A DNA stretch of 27,567 bases. It comes from a virus. The translations under genes were made by a program, and so were the position numbers. Shown here in pieces: positions 1,016-17,287 of the stretch. Where the stretch lies: positions 1-27,567 of the IMG/VR virus record IMGVR_UViG_3300001472_000018; one strand, 5' to 3'. Position 1 is the stretch's first letter; every line of letters starts with the position of its first letter. Under the pieces are notes generated by a model that searched no databases, had not been told where the DNA came from, and saw only the letters and a list, made by a program, of their open reading frames with translations.

Positions 1016-4000
1016 ATGGCGGAGGAAAATCAAGAGCCGGTCAACCTGGGCGATCTAGGTACGGCATCATCCTCAGACATTCGCAAAGCTTTAGAAGGAC
1101 AGCCTAGTCCTGTAGAAGCGAAGGATGCTGTTGACTCGGAAACACCAACTGAAACCCCTGATGCACCACCTGCATCTCCGGGTCAGGACATTACAGGGTT
1201 TCTTACAAACAGCAGTAACAATATTGTCCAGAAGGAGAACGGCAGCTTTAAGTTTATAAATCCTTACGATAATAACTTAGATGTTGACTTAGATCAGTTT
1301 GAAACTCAGCGACGTCGAGTATCGGAAGGTAGCGCGTTGTCAGGCATTTTAAACGGGGTAGAAGGGCTTGAAGAAAGCTTTACTTACACTAGCTTAGAAG
1401 ACACTGCAAAACGCAGTCAGGAGGCTCAAGGCGTCATCAATAAGATGAAGAATGGGATGACTCAGCTTGTAGCAGATACAGGTATAAATGTTGCTCAAGG
1501 TTTTGGCGCATTGCTTTACGGAGTTCCTAGTGCTATAGCGAATGGCGACATCACAAAACTGTATGATAATTCTTTAGCTAATAACTTAGATAAAGGCACA
1601 GAGTTTTTAGACGAGTTCTATAAGATAAAACGAGGGGGTGACCAGAGTAAGGGTCAGAAGGTAGCTAACTTTTTATTTGATGACTTAGCGGGCGGTGCAA
1701 GTTTTGTAATGGGTGCTATTGCTACAGAAATGGCATTTAGTGCTCTTACTGCTGCAACTTTTGGAGGAGCTGCTCCTGCGCAAGCTGCAGTTACTGCAGG
1801 TCTTGTGGCTCGAGGTACGCGGTTAGCTCAAAAAACTTTACAAGGAGGGAAGGCTTTAATATCAGGTAGCCTAGTAGACGATGCTTTACGGGCTAGTAGA
1901 TCTTTAGGAGCTGCAGCTACTAGAGAAGGTGCGGCTTCTGCTTTGCAAGCTGCGGCTCAAACTGCGCGTACTCCGATGGCGCTTCAAGCAGCAGCACGTG
2001 TAGGACGTCAGCTTATTACAGGCGCTTCAATGGAGTCTGGTATGGAAGCAAGACACATGCTCAATGCTTCAGTTGAGAACCAAAAACAACAGTATGAAGA
2101 ACTAAACGGTAAAGGTTCTTTTTCTGAGGAGATGGCAGGAGACTTTCGAGAGGAAATTAGCGGGTATGCAGACGGTGTTTTCGGGGCTAATATGGCTTTG
2201 GTAGGAGCGTCTAACATGTTGATGTTTCCAAAACTGTTTGGGGTAGGGTTACGCAAAGGAATGTCTACTTCAAAGTTTATTGATACAAGTAAACTTTCTC
2301 AGAAAGCACGGGCGCGATTGGCTAAAAATCTAGGAGTAGTAGAAGGCAAGCTTCCGCGTCTTGTAGATGCTGCAAGAGGGAACACTCTAGGGCGTATAGC
2401 GGGTCGCACTGGGACTGTAGGACGTGTAACTGCTGCCAATACTAAGAATGCTTTGTATGAAGGTTTTATCGAGGAAGGTGGGCAAGGAGCTATCAGTCGT
2501 TCGACAGAGGATTACATATCGAAACGCTATGACCCAAAAGGCGTAAAGGATACTGTACGGTTTGCAGACAGCTTTTTAGAGGGACTTAAAGGCAGCTACA
2601 CGACCAAAGACGGCTTTAAGGAAATTGGCATTGGTATGCTTCTAGCATTTACAGGTGTCCCTATGTATGCCCGTAATCAAAGTACTACTCCGTCTTCTAA
2701 TAGTGAAACGGCTGGAAAGCCTGAGAAGAAGTGGAAGTGGCAAATGATGGGAGGGTATGCAGATCAACGGAAAGCACTCATAGCGCGGGATAAAAAAATG
2801 GACGCTATTATGAACCTGTCTGAGAAGCACGGGGATGTAGGCGGCATACTGCGGGCAGAGATAGCAAATATGAATAGACAAAATGTTTTGCAAAAAGAGC
2901 AAGACGCGTCTATTCAAGAGGGCCGATTCAAAGAAGCCAAAGATGCGGAAGCTGAAATGATTTTTTCTCATGCCGCAACTAAAGTCGTTACTGGTCGGTA
3001 TGAGCAATCTATTGCTGAAGCTCAGCAGATTATGGACGAGATGTCAGACGAGGAGTTGCGGGAACAGCTAGGCCCTTCTGCAAAAAACATGACAGAAGAA
3101 GACTTGCGTGCCCACCGCAATAAAGCCATGGAAACTTACCGGTCTAGAATGGATCGGGCTAGGCAGGCGTATGATAGGGCAGGTACAGTGTACAGAGGAG
3201 AAGATGCAGACATCCATACGGGAGTCGCTCATATGCTTTATATGACTAAGGAGAAGGATGCACGTGAGAAGAGTATTGCGGGAGAGATTGCAGATGCAAT
3301 TGAAAATATGAATGAAGGTGATGTTCTTGATCTTGTCCGTATGCAGGCAGATTTAAACATGACTGAGAGCACGACTAATTCATTTTTAGACCTTATTAAT
3401 AAATATCAAAATATTGATAAACAGCTTAATACAAAGCTGGAACGTAAGATTATAAAAAACATTGACCCGGAAAAAGCTGACCAACGTCAAAAAGATATTG
3501 CTAGCGCTCAACAAGCTCGGGAAATACTGGCGGAACAAATGGAAACTATGCTGGAGACTATGGCTACAGCACAGAATGTCGAACGAGGTAAGTACGACTT
3601 TGACCTTAGCACATTCGATCGTTTAGGAGACTTACATAGAGCGATTAGACGTCAACAAGGGGTCGAGTTTCAAGAGGCGGATCTAAAGGCTTTGTTTGAG
3701 GACATGTATGCCGTAGCACAGGACCGTCTAAATTTAATTGGTAACTATAACGACTTTATTAAACCTGGAGGTGTTGAGCGTTTTGAATCTAAGATGATTG
3801 GTTCTATAGAGCGTTTAGCAAAGATGTCTCCTGAGCAGCGTCAAGAAGCTCGTCAACAAGCGGCAGCCGAAGAAGATGCTGATGCTGATTCTGCGGTAGC
3901 AGAAGAGATAGTAAAGGCGGAAGAGGCAGCTACAAAACAGGCTTCTTCACCCCAAAATCCAGGTTCTAATCCCCCTCAAGCTCAAGATGGAGGAGGAGAG

Positions 4001-7000
4001 TTTAGCGTAAATCAAGCTCCACAACAGGTTGTTACTGAGCCGGGCATTGGGTTTCCTGAGCCAGCAGGGTATACTGGGGATGTGCCGACTGCTCCCGCTA
4101 ATGTGGAACTTCGCGAGACACTGCCAGGAGAAAACCCTACACGTAATACGGTAGTCTCTGACGTGACAACAGTACAATTTCAATTTACAAATGCGAATAA
4201 TAGTACAGAGGAAAATAAAGGTAGTACGATTAATGACAAGTACTTAGCCGGACTAAAGAAGGTTATTGCAGGGCTACCTATAGGCACTGTAATAGAAGCT
4301 AGAGAAGGAGAATCTAATGGGAGAATTGCACTACGAGCAGATAAAACTCTTTTAGCAGACATTAAAATTCAAGAGTTTTCTCAAGAGGTGCAAGCGGAGT
4401 TAAGGCTGGGAAAGACAGTCGCACTAGTAACAACATCAGAAGTTAGTCGAGGCTTTGTGGGAGGCGAAACACTTTGGGAAAACAATAATGGAGTAAGGGT
4501 TAGCGCGAATCAGAAAAACGACTTTCCAACAGAGGACTTAGTTAGAGAGGTATTACCGAATGGTGTAGAAGATATCAAAGGCATGAATTTAGTGCCTTCT
4601 AATTCTAACAATTTACTGCCTATAGCAGGGGTAGAATCTATGGGGATTCCTGGTGAAATGGTTACGGATCCAAAGTTTGCAGGTAATTTATTGGTTTCTA
4701 CTGTAGATGCTTTAACTAAAGAAGAAGCGTATCACTTTGTGGAACTCTCGCCAATGACATACGAAAGTTCTACCCAATTGGTAGACTTAGTAGATGCATT
4801 TAATCAATTTGTTCTTAGCCCAAACTCTATGAGTCCTAGTCAAAACGATCTTCTTAGAAAGTTCGCAGAGGCTTCACAAATAGATTTGCAACAACCCGCA
4901 GACGAAGTTTCTAAGGCTGTTGCGTTAAAACTTCGACGGATTATACAGGGCGCAGAGTTCTTAAGTGAGCAAACAAAGAAACTAAAAAATAACCCTAGGA
5001 TTAAAAGGCCGTTACTTGCTGTGGAGCCTTTGGGTTCAGGGAGGGACGGAATTACTTTGGTGGCTTTACTGCAAGGAGATACGTATTATTCCCATGACAA
5101 AGAGGGGAATCGACAAGGCCCCGGTGCGGAAGCTATTGCAAGTTTTATAACCAAGCGTCCTGCAAACGTTACTCAAGAAGGCACTACAGTGTACCCAGAT
5201 GGTAAAGGGAATTTTGATGTTTTTTCTACTTTGGAAATGGTCCAGAAGCAAGGAAAATTTGTGTATCGTGCGCCTTTTGTAGTAGACGGCAAAATTTATA
5301 ACCGGCAATTTGCAAAGGTAGAGCTAAGCATGAACCCTTTGGTTCCTGTTCCTACTAAATTTAAAAGATTAGAAGAGACACCCGAACCTGCTGGCAATAC
5401 ATCTTCTGAGGTTGTAATTGAAAAAAATACGCAGTTTGATCCAGGCAACTATGATCCGAATAAGTTTGGTCTTGACGCAGACTACTTGCCATCTAGTTCC
5501 CAAGAGAGTACCGACCCAATGGAACGCGCAGGGGCTTTGTATGAAGTTCCAGGACTGACTTCTCGTCAGTTGCGTGACGGGATTAACTTCAGTACAGGAA
5601 TGATGGCACGAGCGTTTTCTACTCACATTCGAACGAAAGACCGCAGTGTACCTATTTCAAGTGATTACCTGCGACGTTATGTGAAAGCCAACTTAGAAAA
5701 TAATCTTGCATACTATAAGTCTCTTAAACAAGAGGGCTTTACTGTGAAAGTAGTTGAAGCACATGAAGCCTATCTCAGCTCTGAAAACTTCAATCCTTTA
5801 ATGGATTTGGCTATGGTTGAGCTGCTGCAACAAGCAAAAGACACAGTCGTAGGTCAGGGCGATTTGAATAAGGCGCTCGAAAACATCCGGGATAGAGCGG
5901 CAAATTCTGAAATGTTAGATGATGCAGAGCAAGCTGAACGGGATGCAAATCCTATGGCTGCGTTTGATGAAAACTTTGCTTTTGGAGTAAACCCTAAAAG
6001 CACTTTGCGGTTAGAGTCTAAGCTTTTGCTTATGGGCTTAGTCGATGAGCGTGGTACAACCGGGAAGTCTTTTGGTCTAGCTGGACGTAAATTTTTGAAC
6101 AACACAGATCTTTTAGATAAGCTATCTGCTGTGCTTGCAGGTGTTGCGCCTAGCTATATTAAAGTTAAAGAACGCTTAAAAAAATACACTAAGACTTATC
6201 CTCAGTTTCAGTCTGTTCTAGATATAATGACGGATACTTATGCAATTAATAGCATACCTCCGGGTTTAAAAGCAACCTCTACTGCTAAAGAGTACGCTGA
6301 AATTCAAAACCGTGCTTTGTCTGTCCAAGACATGATTCGCAACCAGTTTGTAGTCTTTGCAAACAAAGAGGTTACAACTTATGACTCGGTTAAAATTGTA
6401 GACGTTACTGCTACACAAGCAAGGGACATCCAAATTTGGAACAGCAACTCCCGTAATATGCGGGAGCATGCAGGAAACGATATTCGTTCAGCTTTGATTG
6501 AACAAGAGTTCTTTGATCTTGATGGTGCGATTAATAAGCCGAAGTTTAAAAACCTTTACGATCAAATCGTAGGAATTTCTGAGTTGCCAGAATCAGACCA
6601 AGCTGCTAAATTTTCTTTAATTCTTGAAGATGAATTAAATATTTCAGTAACGCCTGATGCTTTAACAAGTAAAAACTTGACGGACAATGAAAAGGGTGAT
6701 AGAATATTTCTTGGGGTAGAAGATGCATTAAGGAAAGGAGAAGCGGGAACTGCTGGGATTGTGGGGCGTTTTAAAACAGCCTTAAAAGATTTAAGCACGT
6801 CAGATTTAACTTTAGAAGAAGCATTAAGCTCTGGGTCACAAGCGGGTCGAGCGGTAAAAGACTTTTTTGTAGGGTTAGCGGATTACCGTGAAAACTTTAT
6901 TCAAAAAAGTAGTAAAGACGGGGACAATAAAACTCGGTATCAATACAGTGCGCCTAAACTGGTGCATCAGATGCTAAGAGAAATCAAGACAGCAGCTGTA

Positions 7001-10000
7001 GAAAATCCAGCTTCGGTTCTTTTAGGAAAGCGTTTTGCACAACTTAGCGCAGAAAACCGTCGCTTGATTGAGTTGACTTACTTAAGTGGCATTAAAAAGG
7101 GAAATAAAGGAAAGGAACGAAACTTTCACGGCATGCAAGTGGGTGACAATGTTTTAGCCCAACTTGCTTTTTACGGCAATCGAAACACATATAAACAGCG
7201 GGATGCAAACGGGGAGGCTATAATAATATCAAAATTTTTGATGCCTACCCTAGCTGATAAACAAACAATGCCGATTTTGCAAGCCCCTGCTTTAAGTGCT
7301 AAGCAGGCTGGTGTTGTTTTAAACGAAGAGGTATCTGAAAAGTCTTGGAAGACTCTAACGTTTAAAGACGTAGTGCCTAACGTAGCTGGTGCTTATGAAA
7401 CAATTCTTAAAGACAGCGTTGATCTTGAGATAGATCGTATTATGCGTATCCAAGCGGGAAATACAGAGGGCATGACTGCAGCTCAACGAGTAGCAGTAGG
7501 ATTTGTAATGGTTCCTTCCTTAAACGGAGTAGCTGAAACCTTTATGGAAGGTAAAATCAAACGCGCGGACTTCCGAGCAGAAATTCATAGCAAAGCAGTA
7601 AGGGTATTTGAAGAAGCGATGAACGAAGATATGCAGCACATGCTTCGTGAGACAGAGGGTACTATCTGGAATCCTACAGATAAAGAGGGGGTTGAAACTA
7701 TAGGTGAGCTATTTCACTTTAACGGGTCTAAAAAGAAAAGTCCTGTTAAGGTTCATGTTGCTCCAACAGCTAATCTTCAAAAAGGAGGCAGGCACATAGT
7801 AGCATTTGTAGCGTTTTTAGCTAAGTATGCTATGGATAGCATGAACGTTCGGACAAGTGTTATTATGGACACTATGGGAGATCCTGGGGCATTTGTAAAA
7901 ACAGATAAAGAGACTGGTAAAATTAAACCTGCAAAAACTGCTACTAATTTAGGAAAGCGGTTTGCATCTCTTATTGCCCCTGGCGCGGCAATACCCTATG
8001 TCACATACAATAATCGAAAAGGTATTCCTGTAGATAGCCAAAAGGTAAACTTTCTGGTTATCCCTGCTCGCGTAGTATCTAAAGCCGGGCATTATGAATA
8101 CTTGAAAAAGATAGGACAGTCTGCAGATGAATTGTCTATGCAGGAAAATTACGATAGCGCAGATGCTGCAGAGTATACAACTGTGGAAGAGCATCTGGGT
8201 ATACTCTATGCGAAAGGTGAAATAACTCGTCTGGAAATGGACGATGTTTTAAGTAAAATAGCAAACAACATAAAGCTAACCAATGAGCTAGATTGGTTTC
8301 AACCCATGAAGCCGGTAACTACTGCGCGTGTGGGGGATCATATGCTTTATGTTAAGAGTGCAGCCTTCCCGTTAGTGCCTCAACTTACTCAAGGGACAGA
8401 GCTAGACAAGCTACGGGTATTTATGGAGACTAATAATGTCCAACGTGCTGCTTACGACAGTGCTGTAAAGTTGGGCAACGAGTGGTCGGATGTTAATGAC
8501 ACGTTAGCTACTGAAGCCCAAAAAATGATTCCGGTTCACGTAGGAGACACGGTTGAAATTAATGTAGACGAGTTAAAAAAGCGTGTTATAACTGGCGTCG
8601 ATCGTAAGTACATGCGGATACAACAGGAAGTCCCGAGCAGTACTACAAATGAGAAGGTTCACGGATCGCAGGTAGCTAAATTGCTTCTAGTTGATATAAT
8701 CAGTTCTAAATTTATTTTAAATGGAGAATCGGTAAAAGGGGCTAAGATGTATCAGGCTTACTTGAAGGCTCGTAGGGAAGAGCAAAACGCTCGTTTAGAA
8801 GTATTTGCTGCTCGATACGGGATGGAGTACGATAGCGACACGGGTATATCGCACACTCCAGAGTCAAGGAAGAAGTTTGCCGAGCGTATAACTGAAGAAG
8901 GTGTTGACCGTTCCTATGATGCTAACGAATTAGCGCATCTTTACTTTGACCAGGAAACAGTACGTTTCTTGACACCTTTAGAGGCAGGCCCAAGTTCAGA
9001 ACGCATTGAAAACCTCGTCAAAAGTATAATTTTTAAGGAAGTATACGAGCCGAGTATAGAGGGCTTTAGTGGACCTATACGACCGGAGGTAGGCATTAAG
9101 TCTATTGACGAGGATTTAGTTAATAGCGGAGACATTATGTGGGTTATGAAAGGAGGCGTGCGTCTCTTTGATGGCAATAAACTGAAGGTTGCTCAGGAAG
9201 GGCAGATGGATCAGATTATCATGCCTTGGAAATACAAAGCCAGTCTTGAAAAATATATGGATGATGATGGCAATATCAATGCTGATGACTTACCTCCAGA
9301 GTTGCTCAAGGCTTTTGCCTATCGTATTCCAAATCAACGAAAGAGTTCTTCTGCTGCATTCGAAATTGTAGGGTTCTTGCCCAAGAGTTACGGAGATACC
9401 TTAATTGTTAATGAAGAGCTGGTAGGACGTATTGGACAAGACTACGACATCGATAAGATGTTTGGGTTCTTGTATTCAATTGAACAAACAGAGGATGGTT
9501 CTATAGAGGTTATTAGGAGCGAAGAGAAAGCTAGTGCGCAACGACGGGTTGCGGCTGCACGCAACGAACAAGTTGATATCTATCTCGCCTCTATGGACCC
9601 TCAGGACAATGCGGTTGAAAAGGCTATACACGCTCCTGTAACAGACGGCTATGCGGTAGCGTTAGCAGATCAGATGGATGGACTACTGCATGATGATGCA
9701 GTTTTGGGGCTACCTATGAGCCAGTCCTATAACTCTCGTAAAGCAGATGCAGCTCGAAGTGCGAAAAGTTCTATTGGAGTATTTGCAAAACAGCATGTTC
9801 TTCACGCGCAACTTCAACAGTCTCTTGAAACAAGAGGTTACGGAGGTATTAGTTTTCGAGAGGGAGAGTTTATTACAATTCTTTCAAGTCCAAATGCGAA
9901 GAAACCTACAGAGAATATAGCTTTAGGGAATATAGGAATTCATGACGCAGACTTTAAACTTGAGTATAAAAATCCTCCAGCAGCAGGCAACCGTAGCGAT

Positions 10001-13000
10001 CAGTTTAGCCGATTGTTAAATCATTCTGTAGATAACGAAAACAACGGGTTGTTAAGCAAGCTAGGAATTACACAAGATACTTGGCCTGTATGGACTGGCT
10101 TAACGCATATGGGGTACAACCAAGAGACTATAGCTTTTCTTGTAGCTATGCCTGCAGTTCAACAGTACTTAGCTTTAAAGAAAAAGACGGGACGTTTAGC
10201 TAGTACAGGAAGTACTATAAAAATTAGTACGCTGATAGCACAGGAAATAACAAAGCTGCAGGGAGATTCTAAAAATCCTATAGATATTAAGACTTTACCA
10301 GAGTTAGATAAGGAGTCTATGCTGGATATTATTAAAGGCGCGTCTGAGAAAAGTGAGAGAGAAATTTCTCAAATGAATCTGAGAGCTTTACTAGCTGTTG
10401 AGAAGCTAGAGGTTATGGGTAGAGATCTGAGTCGTGTACAAAACTTTATGGGCTTAGACACTAACCGACCAAAAACATTAATTGGATTGCAGGTGGCTTT
10501 GTCTAAAATGAAAAACCCTCAAAGTGACAAAGAAGGGACTACATTCTCTGTACTAGACGCTGTATCAGCCGCAGACATGACAGTTTCAGGGCAGATTTCG
10601 AATCTAGTTAAAAGGACTGCAACAGGCTTGTTGAATATTCAAAATAACCTGCTGCCGCAAAATATTATTTCGTCTTTAGTAACTGATTTTGAAAAAGCAG
10701 GTCTAACTCAATCTGTAGAAGAATCTATTGGTGACTTGATAAAAGGTGTCAAGAGTTACAATTACTCTTTGTTTACAGCTAAACTAGCGGGTAGGAGTGC
10801 AGAAGAAGTAAGAGCAGAAGCTCACAATCTTGAGACGGGCGGTATTGCAACTCTTTTAATTGAGGCACGTCAGAATCCTGAAATAGCTAATAATTCTTTT
10901 ATTAAGCAGTTGATTGCTGTAAAGGCACCAGGTTCATACCCACACCTAGAGTTTCCAGGAGACCGAGAGCTAGAGGGAAGTTCTACAGAACTACATCGAG
11001 GCTTTTTAAGTTTACTACGTAGTGCTGATCCTGAAGTAAAGAAGTTTGGGGAGTACTTGGTTGTATATGCTTTGGCTACTAGTGGAGGTAAACTCAAAGC
11101 AAGAGGCTATTTAAAGTATGTTCCGGCAGAATACTTACAATCTAAAGGGCTAGGAGATATTGTCAATATTCCTAATATTGCTGAAAGCGTGTCTACTGAT
11201 AAAGTCATAACTGAGGTAATTCGTCATAATGATACTTTAGCTCCTTACTACAACAGTAAGGCAGACGCGGGCATATTTACCTCTAACGAAGTATTACACC
11301 TAGACGTTGAAGCAGCATCCTTTAGAGGGCACGTTCGTGTTAAGAATGCTTTATATGCTCCTTCTGATACTATGGGGCGCATGGTTAGACATAAAGGAAA
11401 AGACGTTGAAGCTATTCCTTTGATACTGGTGAGTAAATTAGGCGATTATTTGACAGATGAGTACACGTCAGATTTTCAGCCAGCTAATAAGAAACCTATA
11501 GTTAAGAGTCTAAAAGGTAATACTACAGCTCCAGCACCTGATGCGCCTCCCCAAGGAACTATGGATCAAAGCTATGAACCAACCCGTAACGTAGCGGAAG
11601 AGTACGACCCAAATTTTAATCCGGTTGTTCCCATGAATATGGGTTTGTCGGGTAAGGTTAATGATGAGATAGTCCGGTCTGAGAATCCAAACAAAATGCC
11701 AATGGGCATTAAGGAGTTCTTAAAAGTTTCTGAGTTACGTAATAACCCTTTTATACAAGAGTTAGCGCAGACTCAAGAATCGTTACAACCTGAAGATAGA
11801 GTTACGGTAGTTGTTAGTGAGGACTTGCCAGGAAAGGGTATGTATAATGCTGGTACTAATACTGTTACTATTCGTCAGGATATGGTAAACGATATTCGTA
11901 CTGTAACTCATGAGTTGGTCCACGCATTTACAAGCCTATCTATTAAGGTAGCGCAAGGCAAGGCAAAAATATCTGACCCTAACAAAAAGGCTAAGATGGT
12001 AGCTGCAGTGAACGAGCTGCAAAAACTTCTGAATATTGCACGTACTCCAGAGTCCTTGCAAAAGATGGGATTAACTTTTGCGGGTCAACAACAATCTGCA
12101 AGAGGCTACAGGGCTTTTAAGAATCAGAGAGATGGAAAGGCCTTGACTGCAGAAGAGCAGCTTGATTTGGATTTCTTCAAAGAAAACTTAGATAAGTACT
12201 ATGCTTTTGTAAGTCTAGAAGAGTTCGTAGCGGAGTCTTTTTCTAATAAAAAGTTTGCTGAGAGGATTGCAAAGCTTTCTTTGAATAGAAATGAAACCTT
12301 TATCGATAGGTTTATGCAGGCTGTAAATAAAGCGTTAATCGCTTTAGGCATAAACTTTGGTAAGGACACTAAGTTCTTAAAGGAGATTTACACGCTGAGT
12401 ATGGGAATCGTGGACATCCAAACAGGAGGTCAGATTGGGTTGATTCCCGGGCAAGAGATAGCGTCTAGTGATTTGATTGACGCAGTTACGGCTGTGGATG
12501 TAGGGGGACAAAACCTACAAGGACTAGATCAGATGAAGGACTACAAGGAGAAGCGTATCCGACAGTTTGAGGAACTTAAGAGTCGGTATAACACTAATAG
12601 GGAGTTTGTACGGAGGGTGGAAGCTAGGCTGGTACAAGAGCGTAAGGATTTGAAGGTGCTTACTGATGATAGTGTAGAGATAACGCCTGACTACTTCCTG
12701 GCTGTTGGTCAAAGAGAACTTGATTTTGCTCGTAGGACTATCGAGAACGTTGACTCTACCGACCCGCAGATTACCATGGCTCTGAGTGCTCTAGAGAATA
12801 TTTATAGTGTGGTCGAGTTCTACGATAAGAGTAGAGAGATTTTGAAAGATCCTGCGCTGTTAGATGTTGCTACTGCGCTACGTAGGGAAGCATCGGAATT
12901 GAAAGATAATTATTTGGATAAGGCTCGGGACATAACACGTCGTGGTGCTAGACAAGAATTAGAGACTCTAGGCGTTAACGTAGATGCTAATAGCTTTGAG

Positions 13001-15748
13001 ACTTTACAGCAGGTTGGGTGGATGAAGTCTTTCTTTATGGATGCGTCTCGTCAGGGCACGGTAGAACTTTCTTTCTTAGATAAGATTGTAAGAGATGCTA
13101 GCCAATTGCAGCGGGTACAGTTTAATGCTCGTGCTAAGCGGTATATGGAAAATAGTAAGAAGTTTAAAAAGACCTCTTACTTTAACGAACACGGCTGGAA
13201 TGGCATGGTTGAACTAGATGCGCAAGGGAATCCTACAGCTAATATGCTTACCATGCTTAGCGGTTCTTATGAATCGGAGTACAACCTTAAGCGTGCTACG
13301 TTAAACAATTCAAAAGCTTTCTATGATTGGAAGCGAAGTGTTACGGGACGTATTGATATCTCTGCTATGTTTGATATCTCTGGTACAGAGGTAAAGCGTA
13401 AAAACAATCCTAAGTACGTAGAGTATCTGAATAAAACGTATGGCGCAGCTGGTGCAGCAGAATTTTTGCAGCAGCAAGAAACGATGGCGCAGGAGTATGT
13501 AGACGCGCGTACCAGTGAATTTGATACGCTGGAGCTTACCCTAGGGGAAAACGCAACAGATGCAAAAGCTTTATGGGAGGCTAAGAATAATCCTATCCAA
13601 GCTTACAAACGTGCTGAGGGTAAAGGGGGTCGTTTTATTAAAGGCGCAACAAGTAGATTCTTGTTAGACATTCCTTTACGCACTGTAAAGGGTAAGGCTA
13701 CGAATTACTATGATGCTAGGTTTGATCAGCTTCAGTCTGAGCCTGATGCATTGGCTTTCTATAATGACTACCGCCAGCAGATAAAAGAGATGATGGCAAT
13801 GTTGCCAGCACATAAGATGACACGTGAAGCGCACCTTGTACGTAATGGACTTTTTATTCCAGCAATTGCGAAATCATTGACGAACGATTTATTTAAAGCA
13901 GAAGGGCTGGCAACCAGGATGAAGCAGCTGCCTGATAATATTCGTAGCGCGTTTACAATTGACCCTGAGTACAATATTAATAAACTTATTGACCCAGTAA
14001 CTGGACGTCCTCGTCAAGAGCTTCCTACTTATTTCTTGGGACAGGTAGATCCTGAAACTCAGGACTACGATATGGATAGGACCTTCCTTGCTTTTACTAT
14101 GATGGCTACCACTTACGATAGTAAGAATGCTATTGAAGATAAAGTTCGGATGACGAAAAGTGTTATGAGCAATGCGCGTGTAGGACGCGTAAAGAAAGGA
14201 TTAGCAGAAAGTGTTTTAAATAAATTAGGGGCAGAGTCTCCTGTAGGGTATGCTGATGAGGCAGCTAGAGCAACTACTATGAGAGTAGTAAATACTGTAG
14301 TAGATACTTTCTACGGTTACCAAAGTAATCAGGATATTACTTTTGAAGCAAATGAAAATTTGTTCACTAAAAAGCAAAAGGAAAAACTAGACGAGTTGAA
14401 AGACCAAAAGCTTGCTGCAAAAACGCAAGAAGAAAAAGACTTAATTCAAAGTCAAATAGAAGAAGCTACTCCTCAAGTAAGTGTGTATAAAGGAATTCGA
14501 GGGGTACAACAGTTTATCCAAGCCAAAGGCATGGCATGGAACGTTCCAGCAGCTATTGTGAATATGGCGTTTGGAGCCATAAGTGTCTTCAAGCACGCTA
14601 GTGGTCAGCGTGACTTTACTGAAGCAGACACCCGTAAAGCTACAGGTATTATGCTAAGTAGTTCATTGAATAATATGACCTTAAATACAGGCTTAACGCA
14701 GAATAAGGAAGCGTTGAAGACTCAAAATGCTATGATAAGCTTTGATTCACTGAAGGACTTTACAGAGATGCGGCACGACCAACGCAAGTTTAAAACTCAA
14801 TCTGGTGAAACTAGCATAAACCAGGCAGAATCTCAGGGCTTTAACAAGCTACGTATGTACGAAATTCAACGTAGCTCAGAGTATTTTGTGTATGGGCAGG
14901 TCATGATTTCTGTATTGCTACATGAAAAAGTCGAGGGTAAGTCTTTGTGGGAGCACATGGGTGGAGATGGGATTATTGATATTGATGGTTATCGTCCGGG
15001 CGAAGAGAAACACTTGGCTTTGATGAATAAGATGGACCAGATCAATAAACGCATACACGGTAACTACGACCCTTCGAGTCCTATCGCAGTGAAGAAGACA
15101 ATGATTGGGCCTCTTCTTATGCAGTTCCGTAGTTGGTTGCCTGAATCCGTAGCAGCTAGATTCGAAAAAGAAAAGTTTGATCCGTATTTGCAACGAGATG
15201 TAAAGGGCACGTATCAAACGATGTTCTTTAGTAGTGCTATTCGTAAGCACCTAACTGCAATGCTTCCAATGTTGGTGCCGAGCTGGGCACGTACGAAAGG
15301 TATGAATGAGATGAGTGCAGAGATCTCAGCAGTGGACCAAGAAAACATTAGAAAGTTCGCGGCTAGCTTGCGTCAGTACTTACAAATAATGATTCTTATT
15401 TCTGTCTTACGTGCCTTGAAAGATGATGAAGACGATAAAGAAGCGTTAATGATTCTGAATGCAAGTCTGAATGTAGTGGACAGAGCTGAAAATGACTTAG
15501 CTTTGTTCGGTCGTCCTGGGGCATTCTTAGATATGACTCAAGGTGATTTCTTAGCTGCAATTGGCGCAGCTAGTGAAGTTGAGAAACTTGGAGAAGCTGT
15601 AGTTAAAACAGCGCAAGGAGACGGAATAATTGAAACCGGTGTTTACGCTGGTAAGTCACGAATGTGGCATCACTTCCAGAAATTAGTACCACACTTAGGA
15701 GCAGTACAGCGGATAGCTAACAACTTAGATCGCGAACTAGGCTCTTGA
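1016..15748 (+). CDS. Giant 4,910-residue virion RNA polymerase and zincin protein, crAss-like type
   Basis: One uninterrupted frame encodes a protein of roughly 540 kDa. Residues 2809-2813 read DYDID followed by KM, the metal-binding DxDxD motif of two-barrel RNA polymerases. It is preceded by YRIP (2769-2772) and a GFLP turn, the arrangement seen in crAss-like virion polymerases and distantly in bacterial beta-prime. Residues 3632-3636 read HELVH with acidic residues at 3735, 3736 and 3740 (EEFVAES), a gluzincin-type metalloprotease signature. The N-terminal region (about 220-415) carries Ala/Gly-rich hydrophobic helices that could be membrane-active. Coiled-coil-like stretches lie near 777-855, 3844-3882 and 4452-4488. 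Proline-rich linkers near 961-1028, 1452-1502 and 3498-3548 divide it into blocks. The C-terminus has an RSWLPE element near 4703. Virion packaging, injection and early transcription are inferred from the family; cleavage at the linkers is possible but not shown. Confidence 0.88.
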   Translation: MAEENQEPVNLGDLGTASSSDIRKALEGQPSPVEAKDAVDSETPTETPDAPPASPGQDITGFLTNSSNNIVQKENGSFKFINPYDNNLDVDLDQFETQRRRVSEGSALSGILNGVEGLEESFTYTSLEDTAKRSQEAQGVINKMKNGMTQLVADTGINVAQGFGALLYGVPSAIANGDITKLYDNSLANNLDKGTEFLDEFYKIKRGGDQSKGQKVANFLFDDLAGGASFVMGAIATEMAFSALTAATFGGAAPAQAAVTAGLVARGTRLAQKTLQGGKALISGSLVDDALRASRSLGAAATREGAASALQAAAQTARTPMALQAAARVGRQLITGASMESGMEARHMLNASVENQKQQYEELNGKGSFSEEMAGDFREEISGYADGVFGANMALVGASNMLMFPKLFGVGLRKGMSTSKFIDTSKLSQKARARLAKNLGVVEGKLPRLVDAARGNTLGRIAGRTGTVGRVTAANTKNALYEGFIEEGGQGAISRSTEDYISKRYDPKGVKDTVRFADSFLEGLKGSYTTKDGFKEIGIGMLLAFTGVPMYARNQSTTPSSNSETAGKPEKKWKWQMMGGYADQRKALIARDKKMDAIMNLSEKHGDVGGILRAEIANMNRQNVLQKEQDASIQEGRFKEAKDAEAEMIFSHAATKVVTGRYEQSIAEAQQIMDEMSDEELREQLGPSAKNMTEEDLRAHRNKAMETYRSRMDRARQAYDRAGTVYRGEDADIHTGVAHMLYMTKEKDAREKSIAGEIADAIENMNEGDVLDLVRMQADLNMTESTTNSFLDLINKYQNIDKQLNTKLERKIIKNIDPEKADQRQKDIASAQQAREILAEQMETMLETMATAQNVERGKYDFDLSTFDRLGDLHRAIRRQQGVEFQEADLKALFEDMYAVAQDRLNLIGNYNDFIKPGGVERFESKMIGSIERLAKMSPEQRQEARQQAAAEEDADADSAVAEEIVKAEEAATKQASSPQNPGSNPPQAQDGGGEFSVNQAPQQVVTEPGIGFPEPAGYTGDVPTAPANVELRETLPGENPTRNTVVSDVTTVQFQFTNANNSTEENKGSTINDKYLAGLKKVIAGLPIGTVIEAREGESNGRIALRADKTLLADIKIQEFSQEVQAELRLGKTVALVTTSEVSRGFVGGETLWENNNGVRVSANQKNDFPTEDLVREVLPNGVEDIKGMNLVPSNSNNLLPIAGVESMGIPGEMVTDPKFAGNLLVSTVDALTKEEAYHFVELSPMTYESSTQLVDLVDAFNQFVLSPNSMSPSQNDLLRKFAEASQIDLQQPADEVSKAVALKLRRIIQGAEFLSEQTKKLKNNPRIKRPLLAVEPLGSGRDGITLVALLQGDTYYSHDKEGNRQGPGAEAIASFITKRPANVTQEGTTVYPDGKGNFDVFSTLEMVQKQGKFVYRAPFVVDGKIYNRQFAKVELSMNPLVPVPTKFKRLEETPEPAGNTSSEVVIEKNTQFDPGNYDPNKFGLDADYLPSSSQESTDPMERAGALYEVPGLTSRQLRDGINFSTGMMARAFSTHIRTKDRSVPISSDYLRRYVKANLENNLAYYKSLKQEGFTVKVVEAHEAYLSSENFNPLMDLAMVELLQQAKDTVVGQGDLNKALENIRDRAANSEMLDDAEQAERDANPMAAFDENFAFGVNPKSTLRLESKLLLMGLVDERGTTGKSFGLAGRKFLNNTDLLDKLSAVLAGVAPSYIKVKERLKKYTKTYPQFQSVLDIMTDTYAINSIPPGLKATSTAKEYAEIQNRALSVQDMIRNQFVVFANKEVTTYDSVKIVDVTATQARDIQIWNSNSRNMREHAGNDIRSALIEQEFFDLDGAINKPKFKNLYDQIVGISELPESDQAAKFSLILEDELNISVTPDALTSKNLTDNEKGDRIFLGVEDALRKGEAGTAGIVGRFKTALKDLSTSDLTLEEALSSGSQAGRAVKDFFVGLADYRENFIQKSSKDGDNKTRYQYSAPKLVHQMLREIKTAAVENPASVLLGKRFAQLSAENRRLIELTYLSGIKKGNKGKERNFHGMQVGDNVLAQLAFYGNRNTYKQRDANGEAIIISKFLMPTLADKQTMPILQAPALSAKQAGVVLNEEVSEKSWKTLTFKDVVPNVAGAYETILKDSVDLEIDRIMRIQAGNTEGMTAAQRVAVGFVMVPSLNGVAETFMEGKIKRADFRAEIHSKAVRVFEEAMNEDMQHMLRETEGTIWNPTDKEGVETIGELFHFNGSKKKSPVKVHVAPTANLQKGGRHIVAFVAFLAKYAMDSMNVRTSVIMDTMGDPGAFVKTDKETGKIKPAKTATNLGKRFASLIAPGAAIPYVTYNNRKGIPVDSQKVNFLVIPARVVSKAGHYEYLKKIGQSADELSMQENYDSADAAEYTTVEEHLGILYAKGEITRLEMDDVLSKIANNIKLTNELDWFQPMKPVTTARVGDHMLYVKSAAFPLVPQLTQGTELDKLRVFMETNNVQRAAYDSAVKLGNEWSDVNDTLATEAQKMIPVHVGDTVEINVDELKKRVITGVDRKYMRIQQEVPSSTTNEKVHGSQVAKLLLVDIISSKFILNGESVKGAKMYQAYLKARREEQNARLEVFAARYGMEYDSDTGISHTPESRKKFAERITEEGVDRSYDANELAHLYFDQETVRFLTPLEAGPSSERIENLVKSIIFKEVYEPSIEGFSGPIRPEVGIKSIDEDLVNSGDIMWVMKGGVRLFDGNKLKVAQEGQMDQIIMPWKYKASLEKYMDDDGNINADDLPPELLKAFAYRIPNQRKSSSAAFEIVGFLPKSYGDTLIVNEELVGRIGQDYDIDKMFGFLYSIEQTEDGSIEVIRSEEKASAQRRVAAARNEQVDIYLASMDPQDNAVEKAIHAPVTDGYAVALADQMDGLLHDDAVLGLPMSQSYNSRKADAARSAKSSIGVFAKQHVLHAQLQQSLETRGYGGISFREGEFITILSSPNAKKPTENIALGNIGIHDADFKLEYKNPPAAGNRSDQFSRLLNHSVDNENNGLLSKLGITQDTWPVWTGLTHMGYNQETIAFLVAMPAVQQYLALKKKTGRLASTGSTIKISTLIAQEITKLQGDSKNPIDIKTLPELDKESMLDIIKGASEKSEREISQMNLRALLAVEKLEVMGRDLSRVQNFMGLDTNRPKTLIGLQVALSKMKNPQSDKEGTTFSVLDAVSAADMTVSGQISNLVKRTATGLLNIQNNLLPQNIISSLVTDFEKAGLTQSVEESIGDLIKGVKSYNYSLFTAKLAGRSAEEVRAEAHNLETGGIATLLIEARQNPEIANNSFIKQLIAVKAPGSYPHLEFPGDRELEGSSTELHRGFLSLLRSADPEVKKFGEYLVVYALATSGGKLKARGYLKYVPAEYLQSKGLGDIVNIPNIAESVSTDKVITEVIRHNDTLAPYYNSKADAGIFTSNEVLHLDVEAASFRGHVRVKNALYAPSDTMGRMVRHKGKDVEAIPLILVSKLGDYLTDEYTSDFQPANKKPIVKSLKGNTTAPAPDAPPQGTMDQSYEPTRNVAEEYDPNFNPVVPMNMGLSGKVNDEIVRSENPNKMPMGIKEFLKVSELRNNPFIQELAQTQESLQPEDRVTVVVSEDLPGKGMYNAGTNTVTIRQDMVNDIRTVTHELVHAFTSLSIKVAQGKAKISDPNKKAKMVAAVNELQKLLNIARTPESLQKMGLTFAGQQQSARGYRAFKNQRDGKALTAEEQLDLDFFKENLDKYYAFVSLEEFVAESFSNKKFAERIAKLSLNRNETFIDRFMQAVNKALIALGINFGKDTKFLKEIYTLSMGIVDIQTGGQIGLIPGQEIASSDLIDAVTAVDVGGQNLQGLDQMKDYKEKRIRQFEELKSRYNTNREFVRRVEARLVQERKDLKVLTDDSVEITPDYFLAVGQRELDFARRTIENVDSTDPQITMALSALENIYSVVEFYDKSREILKDPALLDVATALRREASELKDNYLDKARDITRRGARQELETLGVNVDANSFETLQQVGWMKSFFMDASRQGTVELSFLDKIVRDASQLQRVQFNARAKRYMENSKKFKKTSYFNEHGWNGMVELDAQGNPTANMLTMLSGSYESEYNLKRATLNNSKAFYDWKRSVTGRIDISAMFDISGTEVKRKNNPKYVEYLNKTYGAAGAAEFLQQQETMAQEYVDARTSEFDTLELTLGENATDAKALWEAKNNPIQAYKRAEGKGGRFIKGATSRFLLDIPLRTVKGKATNYYDARFDQLQSEPDALAFYNDYRQQIKEMMAMLPAHKMTREAHLVRNGLFIPAIAKSLTNDLFKAEGLATRMKQLPDNIRSAFTIDPEYNINKLIDPVTGRPRQELPTYFLGQVDPETQDYDMDRTFLAFTMMATTYDSKNAIEDKVRMTKSVMSNARVGRVKKGLAESVLNKLGAESPVGYADEAARATTMRVVNTVVDTFYGYQSNQDITFEANENLFTKKQKEKLDELKDQKLAAKTQEEKDLIQSQIEEATPQVSVYKGIRGVQQFIQAKGMAWNVPAAIVNMAFGAISVFKHASGQRDFTEADTRKATGIMLSSSLNNMTLNTGLTQNKEALKTQNAMISFDSLKDFTEMRHDQRKFKTQSGETSINQAESQGFNKLRMYEIQRSSEYFVYGQVMISVLLHEKVEGKSLWEHMGGDGIIDIDGYRPGEEKHLALMNKMDQINKRIHGNYDPSSPIAVKKTMIGPLLMQFRSWLPESVAARFEKEKFDPYLQRDVKGTYQTMFFSSAIRKHLTAMLPMLVPSWARTKGMNEMSAEISAVDQENIRKFAASLRQYLQIMILISVLRALKDDEDDKEALMILNASLNVVDRAENDLALFGRPGAFLDMTQGDFLAAIGAASEVEKLGEAVVKTAQGDGIIETGVYAGKSRMWHHFQKLVPHLGAVQRIANNLDRELGS

Positions 15749-15751
15749 CAC

Positions 15752-17020
15752 ATGAAAAATAAAATAATCTTTAAAACGCTTAGCCTACTTTGGTTAGGCG
15801 TTTTTCTTGGCTATAATAATTATAGTCAATCTGTCCCCTTTATAGAAGGAATAAACTTATTATTTCCTGGGTGCACTGATCCTATGGCGCTCAACTACAA
15901 TGAGGAAGCTACTGAAGATGATGGCACCTGCGTCTATTCTATAGGCCCAGATCCAGTCATACTTAATATAACTGTTACAGATGAAAGCTGCCAAGAGTAC
16001 GAGACAGGAGTCCTGTCTTCTTACGTATACGAGGCTACTATAGTAAATATAGGAAACGAAGCAGTTACAAACTTTTGCCTTAGCGACTTCTTAGGTACCA
16101 CGTTTAACTGTTTTAACGGGGTCTCTAATCTTGCTGTTTGGATTCAACCCGGGGATACTATAACTGTGACGGGTAACATCAATAGTATAGGCACATGGGT
16201 AGAAGGACAAGGAAACTATATGACTGTAACGAGTGTTCCTGGGGAGGTTATTACAGGTAATAATAACTTTGTTTTTTATATGCCTGAGGGAGTGGATTGC
16301 GTAGAGCCTGCTGATCCTGAATACTGCGATACTCTACTGGTCTACGTGACTGAAATAGACACGCTTATTGAGTATGTAGAACTTCCGGCTGATACAGTGA
16401 CTGTGCTGCAGCTAGACACGTTGTATATTCCTTGGGAGTATTATTTCTACGATACGGTATACGTAGATGTTTTTGACACTATTTACGTGACAATGCTAGA
16501 TACTGTAATTATTACAGAAATAGATTTACAGTATGTATATGAAACAGATACTATTCTTGTACTACAAGTAGACACAGTTCTTGTGTCTCAAATAGATACT
16601 CTCTTTCAGGAGGTAGTAATCTATGAATATATCTACCAGACGGATACAGTACTCCAAGTAGTATACGATGAGGTTTTAATAGACTGCGGGACCGGTCTAC
16701 CTTGTATAGGAGGTTTCTCAGGCATGACGTGTGAATCTGTATTCATACCAAATGCGTTTTCTCCAAACAACGATGGCATTAATGATACTTTCTATGTAGT
16801 ATCTGAATCTTATGACTGCTGGTTAGAATGGCAGTTAATCGTATACAATAGGTGGGGTACTGCAATTTGGAGCAGCGATGATCCGCAAGCCCAGTGGTAT
16901 GGACAAGCAGAAAATCAAATGCATTACGTTTCAGATGGCGTGTATGTCTGGACTCTGCGGGCAAAGGGAGCCACAGGTAACGCGTTAGATCTATCAGGGT
17001 CAGTTACGGTCTTCCGTTGA
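15752..17020 (+). CDS. Secreted surface protein with T9SS type B (CHU_C) sorting domain
   Basis: The 422-residue protein begins with a clear signal peptide (basic MKNKIIFK, then a hydrophobic core to about residue 20). Residues 40-60 carry the cysteine-bracketed GCTDPMALNYN...DDGTC element common in secreted flavobacterial proteins. A beta-rich domain follows at about 68-185, then an eight-residue DT repeat stalk (193-300). Residues 328-422 match the gliding-motility-associated C-terminal domain: IPNAFSPNNDGINDTF at 332-347, a central YNRWG, a DGVYVW strand and a terminal VTVFR. That domain is the cargo signal of the type IX secretion system, found in Bacteroidota. The gene starts three bases after the giant protein's stop, so it is probably co-transcribed and coupled. 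It is unlikely to be a standard capsid part. Host-surface display, superinfection exclusion or a virion receptor role are all inferences. Confidence 0.85.
   Translation: MKNKIIFKTLSLLWLGVFLGYNNYSQSVPFIEGINLLFPGCTDPMALNYNEEATEDDGTCVYSIGPDPVILNITVTDESCQEYETGVLSSYVYEATIVNIGNEAVTNFCLSDFLGTTFNCFNGVSNLAVWIQPGDTITVTGNINSIGTWVEGQGNYMTVTSVPGEVITGNNNFVFYMPEGVDCVEPADPEYCDTLLVYVTEIDTLIEYVELPADTVTVLQLDTLYIPWEYYFYDTVYVDVFDTIYVTMLDTVIITEIDLQYVYETDTILVLQVDTVLVSQIDTLFQEVVIYEYIYQTDTVLQVVYDEVLIDCGTGLPCIGGFSGMTCESVFIPNAFSPNNDGINDTFYVVSESYDCWLEWQLIVYNRWGTAIWSSDDPQAQWYGQAENQMHYVSDGVYVWTLRAKGATGNALDLSGSVTVFR
16328..16651 (+). repeat. Octapeptide DT(V/I/L) repeat stalk inside the T9SS cargo gene
   Basis: Within the secreted protein, Asp-Thr pairs followed by an aliphatic residue occur at residues 193, 203, 214, 222, 234, 242, 250, 266, 274, 282 and 298. 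Position 258 (DL) and position 290 (degenerate) keep the register. From 234 to 298 the period is exactly eight residues (24 bases). Aliphatic and aromatic residues alternate between the DT pairs, which suggests extended beta-strands forming a stalk between the N-terminal domain and the sorting domain. The DNA copies have diverged, so this is an old protein-level repeat and not a recent tandem duplication. Confidence 0.8.
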
Positions 17021-17287
17021 CGCATTGGTTACACGTCCGCAAATCATGTGCTCTGAGATTAGCACGTGGTCTTCTCCGTCGATAGGAATAATTAGACCTT
17101 TAGATTCAGGATGTACCATAACAGTATCGCCAACTTTAACATTGCGGCAATCAGGTCCGACTGCTAGAACGGGCAATACATAAGAAGGTCTAACAGTAGT
17201 CTGTTCCGTAAGGATAATACCAGACTTAGTCTTCTCGTGCTTTTCGTGAGGCAGAATCACGTAGTTGTGTGTGGGTATAAAATTCAT
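17000..17287 (-). CDS. GroES-like co-chaperonin (phage Cpn10)
   Basis: The 95-residue length matches Cpn10. The N-terminal strand (PTHNYVILPHE) is followed by a mobile-loop region at about 16-32 containing KSGIIL, the equivalent of the GIVL tripeptide region by which GroES contacts GroEL. Then come VLAVGPD (40-46) and VKVGDTVMV (50-58), typical of the GroES barrel, and a C-terminal strand with VLISEHMICG. The protein should cap the host GroEL in the cytoplasm, as T4 gp31 does during capsid protein folding; the client here is unknown. No GroEL is encoded in the window. It is the last gene of the leftward block, 11 bases after the 44-residue gene, and its 3' end overlaps the rightward secreted-protein gene by 21 bases. 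Confidence 0.85.
   Translation of the reverse strand: MNFIPTHNYVILPHEKHEKTKSGIILTEQTTVRPSYVLPVLAVGPDCRNVKVGDTVMVHPESKGLIIPIDGEDHVLISEHMICGRVTNASTEDRN

Follow-up and report, generated by a model that had tools for sequence, protein, structure and literature searches.

The gene at positions 15752-17020 (plus strand) encodes a 422-residue protein, P0001, which as read from its sequence bears the marks of a type-B cargo of the host type IX secretion system (T9SS). The DNA analysed, here called the window, is a stretch of 27,567 nucleotides belonging to a 57-kb virus record. By comparison with other phages, the gene has the behaviour of a mobile accessory gene of Bacteroidota phages that is directed at the host, and not that of a part of the virion. 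We consider it likely that the protein is displayed at the cell surface as the product of an accessory gene. With somewhat less assurance, we favour an overall reading in which this mobile cargo would be exported by the host T9SS and displayed, with its head occupying or hiding a surface structure used by phages. T9SS cargo in phages as such is already published, namely the type A cargos of Cryophage. What is new is a type-B, stalked and head-exchanging family spread over two phage capsid types, together with an exchange slot beside a crAss-type polymerase gene and no shuttle of its own found.

Most of what is known of surface-altering phage proteins comes from E. coli-type hosts. If the favoured reading is true, Bacteroidota phages, crAss-like ones included, commonly borrow host type IX secretion for the display of a protein of their own, and superinfection and phage-host contact in Bacteroidota would become open to concrete study. 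The family would also be a natural test of what selects the type-B shuttle, as the phage brings the cargo and, as far as seen, no shuttle. The same gene with interchangeable tips in unrelated phages suggests that phages remodel the surface of infected cells.

Domain layout and predicted structure of the cargo protein

The open reading frame starts with ATG and includes its stop codon. The N-terminus reads MKNKIIFK, followed by TLSLLWLGVFLGY and NNYSQ, and residues 1-26 (15752-15829) were identified as a Sec signal peptide by direct reading, with the cleavage site placed by eye, and by hydropathy over the homologues. The element GCTDPMALNYNEEATEDDGTC (GCTDPMALNYN…DDGTC; aa 40-60, 15869-15931) was present in all seven phage proteins aligned. 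It is followed by a CARDB-like beta-sandwich head (aa 64-186, 15941-16309), delimited from the structure model, the Foldseek match and identity to other phage heads, by an acidic DT-repeat stalk (aa 187-310, 16310-16681), and by the C-terminal sorting domain (aa 311-422, 16682-17017). The stalk of 124 residues has 11 DT pairs, most commonly spaced by 8, with 25 acidic and no basic residues, and 11 pairs were reached in 0 of 20,000 shuffles. Lysine and arginine are wholly absent from residues 27-310; as several host proteins are likewise depleted of them in the stalk region, we rejected this depletion as a phage-specific trait.

The type-B sorting domain sits at the extreme C-terminus. Pfam CHU_C (PF13585) matched aa 331-408 (16742-16975) with E=1.5e-16 and 60.7 bits against a cut-off of 27, so that a match near the C-terminus, on which the initial annotation had staked its reading, was found clearly above the Pfam threshold. 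The second profile it had proposed, TIGR04131, matched aa 332-398 with a clear E-value (1.9e-8) and a score of 34.3 bits, marginally (0.7 bits) under the cut-off of 35. The protein also contains FSPNNDGIND, YNRWG, WYG, DGVYVW and GSVTVFR, which are candidates for the conserved type-B motifs that secretion requires (A-E of PMC12618676). Three features had originally been read as export marks. The signal peptide and the type-B domain hold, and the GCTDP element does not, being no export signal but a repeat common in Flavobacteriales proteins: matches to the head profile, mostly to this element, occurred in 170 of 299 Flavobacteriales genomes.

AlphaFold2 modelling depended on the depth of the input, as seven sequences gave a poor mean pLDDT of 43.8 and 59 sequences gave 61.0. 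In the 59-sequence model the head (aa 64-186, pLDDT about 58-89) and the C-terminal domain (aa 331-422, mostly 77-92) were fairly confident, and the stalk had no confident structure. Foldseek related the head to the CARDB domain of PF1109 (3idu; E=1e-3, probability 1.00, TMt 0.54), a structural and weak match. A PDB sequence search with the cargo family returned nothing significant.

Phage lineages, head exchange and the slot after the polymerase gene

By its major capsid protein, portal and terminase, the phage is assigned as Crassvirales-like: the capsid protein matched PF23898 (Crass_capsid, E=3e-82), the portal phrog_6547 and the terminase phrog_6681. A 76.9-kb viral contig (G001) matched the window at 99.99% over the 21-kb stretch compared. 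Upstream of the cargo gene lies a giant gene of 4910 residues (1016-15748, plus strand), predicted to encode a crAss-like RNA polymerase polyprotein. It matched phrog_16227 (virion structural protein, E=1.2e-30), and its residues 2374-2825 (8135-9490) matched the RNA polymerase of phi14:2 (6VR4, E=2.8e-16). In the DxDxD region QDYDIDKM aligns with SDFDIDKM of 6VR4 (DYDID versus DFDID). We take its product to be the virion RNA polymerase, from what is known of crAss-like phages. By eye, a THELVHAF sequence (HExxH) was noted near residue 3632 of the giant gene, possibly a protease segment of the polyprotein.

The three-base gap between the giant-gene stop and the cargo ATG that had been described is confirmed by the open reading frame coordinates, and the spacing from polymerase to cargo slot was -1 to +3 in the five relatives whose reading frame is clear. 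The proposed coupling to the virion RNA polymerase gene stands to the extent that the cargo adjoins a crAss-type polymerase gene, but the link is limited to one lineage and is not family-wide. Promoter-like matches near the cargo gene were at chance level (5 seen, 5.0 expected), and from gene position alone we infer that it is made late. Downstream, the 3' end of a convergent GroES-like (Cpn10) gene (17000-17287, minus strand; PF00166, E=1e-10) overlaps that of the cargo gene by 21 nt. This is the first gene of a convergent block that also holds a uracil-DNA glycosylase, a nuclease, a primase-like protein and a DnaB-type helicase.

Viral contigs were scanned twice for the family, which turned up more than 80 loci, and 59 distinct proteins were compared. 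All 59 matched both CHU_C and TIGR04131; since the second scan searched with C-terminal motifs, this uniformity is in part built in. Almost every complete member has a hydrophobic, signal-like N-terminus, and a few start codons look called too far upstream. The stalk region contained on average 11.2 DT pairs in the phage proteins; for host CHU_C proteins the mean was 1.8 and the maximum 4. The family was found in phages with crAss-type capsids (G001, G003, G005) and in phages with T4-type Gp23 capsids (G006, G010-G014, G026). Of 12 phage genomes, 11 had a single CHU_C gene and one had two. Its neighbourhoods differ: the gene lies after the polymerase gene, beside terminase genes or within large T4-like genomes. 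A tree of the C-terminal domain put the 59 phage rows in one set with only 2 of 64 host rows (support 96); it has few columns, its phage and host sets came from related queries, and it does not prove a single origin. In a search of 199 Flavobacteriales genomes, nearly all of the matches listed were confined to the C-terminal domain, and the best of them covered mainly that domain and left the stalk uncovered.

The cargo DNA was 82% identical to that of L005 over 1103 bp, with the TerL, portal and MCP proteins at 41-43%. In the same comparison dN/dS was 0.13 for the head, 0.19 for the stalk and 0.11 for the C-terminal domain, and dS was 0.26, 0.83 and 2.45, respectively, the values for the C-terminal domain being near saturation. 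Such purifying selection implies that the conservation of the cargo is not chance. Heads were 75-93% identical to those of other phages, large ones included, and the C-terminal domains were far more diverged. In the relative L223 the polymerase C-terminus is 89% identical, the gap is again 3 nt and the signal peptide is very similar, but a different head follows; its contig stops 209 bases past the polymerase stop. The simplest reading of these sequences is that recombination spreads heads and each lineage retains its own C-terminal domain, which would fit a match of that domain to the host shuttle.

In close relatives (L225/L226, L227, L229) the slot after the polymerase is occupied by a gene on the opposite strand, whose product has a signal peptide and an M43 metalloprotease domain. 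The M43 domains matched with E-values down to 2.2e-19, and their HExxH zinc motif is intact (for example L225:3482-4675, L227:5885-7072 and L229:3781-4878). Well-supported branches of the polymerase tree require the cargo state to have changed at least three times, and the protease-bearing L229 and the cargo-bearing L230 pair as sisters with support 100/100. A CHU_C gene was absent from the 79.9-kb protease phage, and an M43 gene was absent from the crAss-like cargo phages tested. From its gene content the slot appears to be a place for exported proteins, and the alternation may reflect a general hot spot for exported genes without shared function. In L115/L117, L145 and, divided between two frames, L142, the gene immediately before the cargo encodes an M43 protease, and in some large phages the M43 gene in this position ends with a type A-like tail by sequence reading. 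A general partnership of protease and cargo was rejected, as none of the 80 nearest M43 loci had a cargo gene within flanks of up to 6 kb, and we therefore claim only a local link. Viral contigs commonly encode secreted M43 metalloproteases that carry dockerin-like repeats; a single scan gave 161 matches.

Probable export route and possible roles of the head

To leave through the SprA translocon, type-B cargo needs a cognate PorP/SprF shuttle, one of which can serve several unlinked (orphan) cargos (PMC12618676). PorP-like proteins also anchor type-B cargo at the cell surface (PMC9143113). No PorP/SprF gene (PF11751) was found in the 12 phage genomes, some of them partial, and five Flavobacteriales genomes had 3-17 each, so that a host shuttle would have to serve. 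Most likely, as far as gene content tells, the phage supplies the cargo only and exploits the host shuttle. According to our proposal, the protein would be produced together with the late genes, carried by Sec into the periplasm, and moved over the outer membrane by the host T9SS translocon and a host PorP/SprF-type shuttle via its CHU_C domain. The same domain would retain it on the surface of the infected cell, where the DT stalk would hold the variable head away. The head would then occupy or hide a surface structure that phages use, leading to less superinfection or to less progeny being lost onto spent cells and debris.

This last part, an exclusion or anti-readsorption role through receptor masking or less re-adsorption, is put forward tentatively, with the odds somewhat against it; an exclusion factor would be expected early, not late. 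Adhesion is the role usually assigned to CARDB-like heads, so that attachment by the infected cell comes close to masking in likelihood. The displayed head would then bind outward targets and tether infected cells to other cells or particles, with lysis near new hosts. We regard such an adhesin as a possibility of slightly lower standing. The CARDB-like head on a long stalk, the exchange of heads among phages while C-terminal domains diverge, and the presence of this type of C-terminal domain on host adhesins such as SprB (PMC12618676) all speak for it, but the resemblance to CARDB is a weak one, seen in structure (E=1e-3).

Cargo with a type-B domain is sent either onto the gliding machinery or into static anchoring (PMC12618676). 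The protein might accordingly compete for the PorP/SprF shuttle or ride the gliding track, and so stop gliding or starve the export of host cargo and block phage adsorption that depends on them. This is consistent with the targeting of gliding machinery by such domains and with the failure to find a phage-encoded shuttle in the 12 genomes, but a plain competitor needs neither a conserved head (dN/dS 0.13) nor a long stalk, and we hold it to be unlikely.

That the protein is built into particles, or captured by them once the cell has lysed, and that its head serves their attachment, is very unlikely. The cargo does adjoin the polymerase gene in a late-looking block, but the same family occurs at unrelated loci of crAss-type and T4-type phages, a protease substitutes for it in close relatives, and its signal peptide counts against a virion-associated protein, given that assembly of phage particles is cytoplasmic. 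The initial view that the protein is unlike usual virion proteins is borne out by the signal peptide, the spread over both capsid types and the replaceable slot. That it is a passenger host gene without phage function, recently picked up or a binning artefact, is scarcely credible: CHU_C genes are numerous in host genomes, but the cargo is under purifying selection, falls in a well-supported and almost purely phage C-terminal clade, recurs in viral contigs alongside phage hallmark genes, and has best matches in the 199 Flavobacteriales genomes that cover mainly the C-terminal domain and not the stalk.

Extending the favoured reading of surface display, we speculate, with little confidence, that Bacteroidota phages share a modular surface-display kit. 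Its parts would be exchangeable heads, a phage-specific DT stalk and a C-terminal domain that the host shuttle reads as a host-specific address. The infected cell would display the phage protein or carry it along the gliding track, and the M43 protease would serve the same surface remodelling, either in place of this protein or together with it.

Known systems and other putative exported phage proteins

Like the present protein, the Cryophage cargos are phage-encoded proteins with T9SS sorting domains (PMC7468147). Cryophage has three such cargos, which are highly variable between phage variants, and its authors already proposed superinfection exclusion or competition (PMC7468147). There, type A domains are carried by an endoglucanase, a GH39 protein and a PA14 protein in one phage, whereas the present cargo is of type B (CHU_C), has no enzyme domain and forms a family across crAss-like and T4-like phages. 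In crAss-like gut phages, T9SS sorting domains have been described near the head gene section, one of them fused to BACON domains (PMC6949934); the parts of that report available to us describe no stalk-CHU_C family, head exchange or exchange slot. Our literature search found no study of the stalked CHU_C phage family.

The protein resembles SprB and Fjoh_3952 of Flavobacterium johnsoniae (PMC12618676) in its signal peptide and its CHU_C/TIGR04131 C-terminal domain, and a PorP/SprF shuttle is expected accordingly. The host proteins closest in their C-terminal domain are for the most part far longer than the phage cargo and lack its DT stalk. Some host type-B cargo genes have a linked shuttle gene, whereas the phage cargo genes have none. 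The BFVD entry A0A7S9STS8 of Virus NIOZ-UU157 is of similar length and matched in fold along the chain (E=3.8e-15). Its label, 'Gliding motility-associated C-terminal domain', is an automatic name, as for some other BFVD phage proteins.

Other putative exported proteins were observed in these phages. The same phage (G001) encodes a second T9SS cargo of type A (L187:7960-10095, 712 aa) upstream of the polymerase block, with a Por_Secre_tail match of 27.7 bits against 27 and several GCTDP-like repeats; group B phages have a similar protein of 707 aa. Adjoining it is a 346-aa protein (L187:10095-11132) that has a signal peptide, looks like an outer-membrane barrel and is conserved across two crAss-like groups. 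It was considered as a PorP/SprF shuttle and rejected, as it had no PF11751 match and a profile comparison with host PorP/SprF was negative, the phage alignment being shallow; nor did it match any PDB sequence. The same block holds a small exported thioredoxin-like protein (L187:11430-11792 and L005:11161-11532). In L012/L013 (L013:5743-6402) a protein with a DT-repeat stalk and a short type A-like tail, lacking CHU_C, adjoins a barrel-like protein. At 15 of 61 loci, in several phage groups, a small secreted protein of about 120-140 aa with an EF-hand/dockerin-like repeat lies beside the cargo (for example L104:7059-7481), and it matched the M43 profile weakly.
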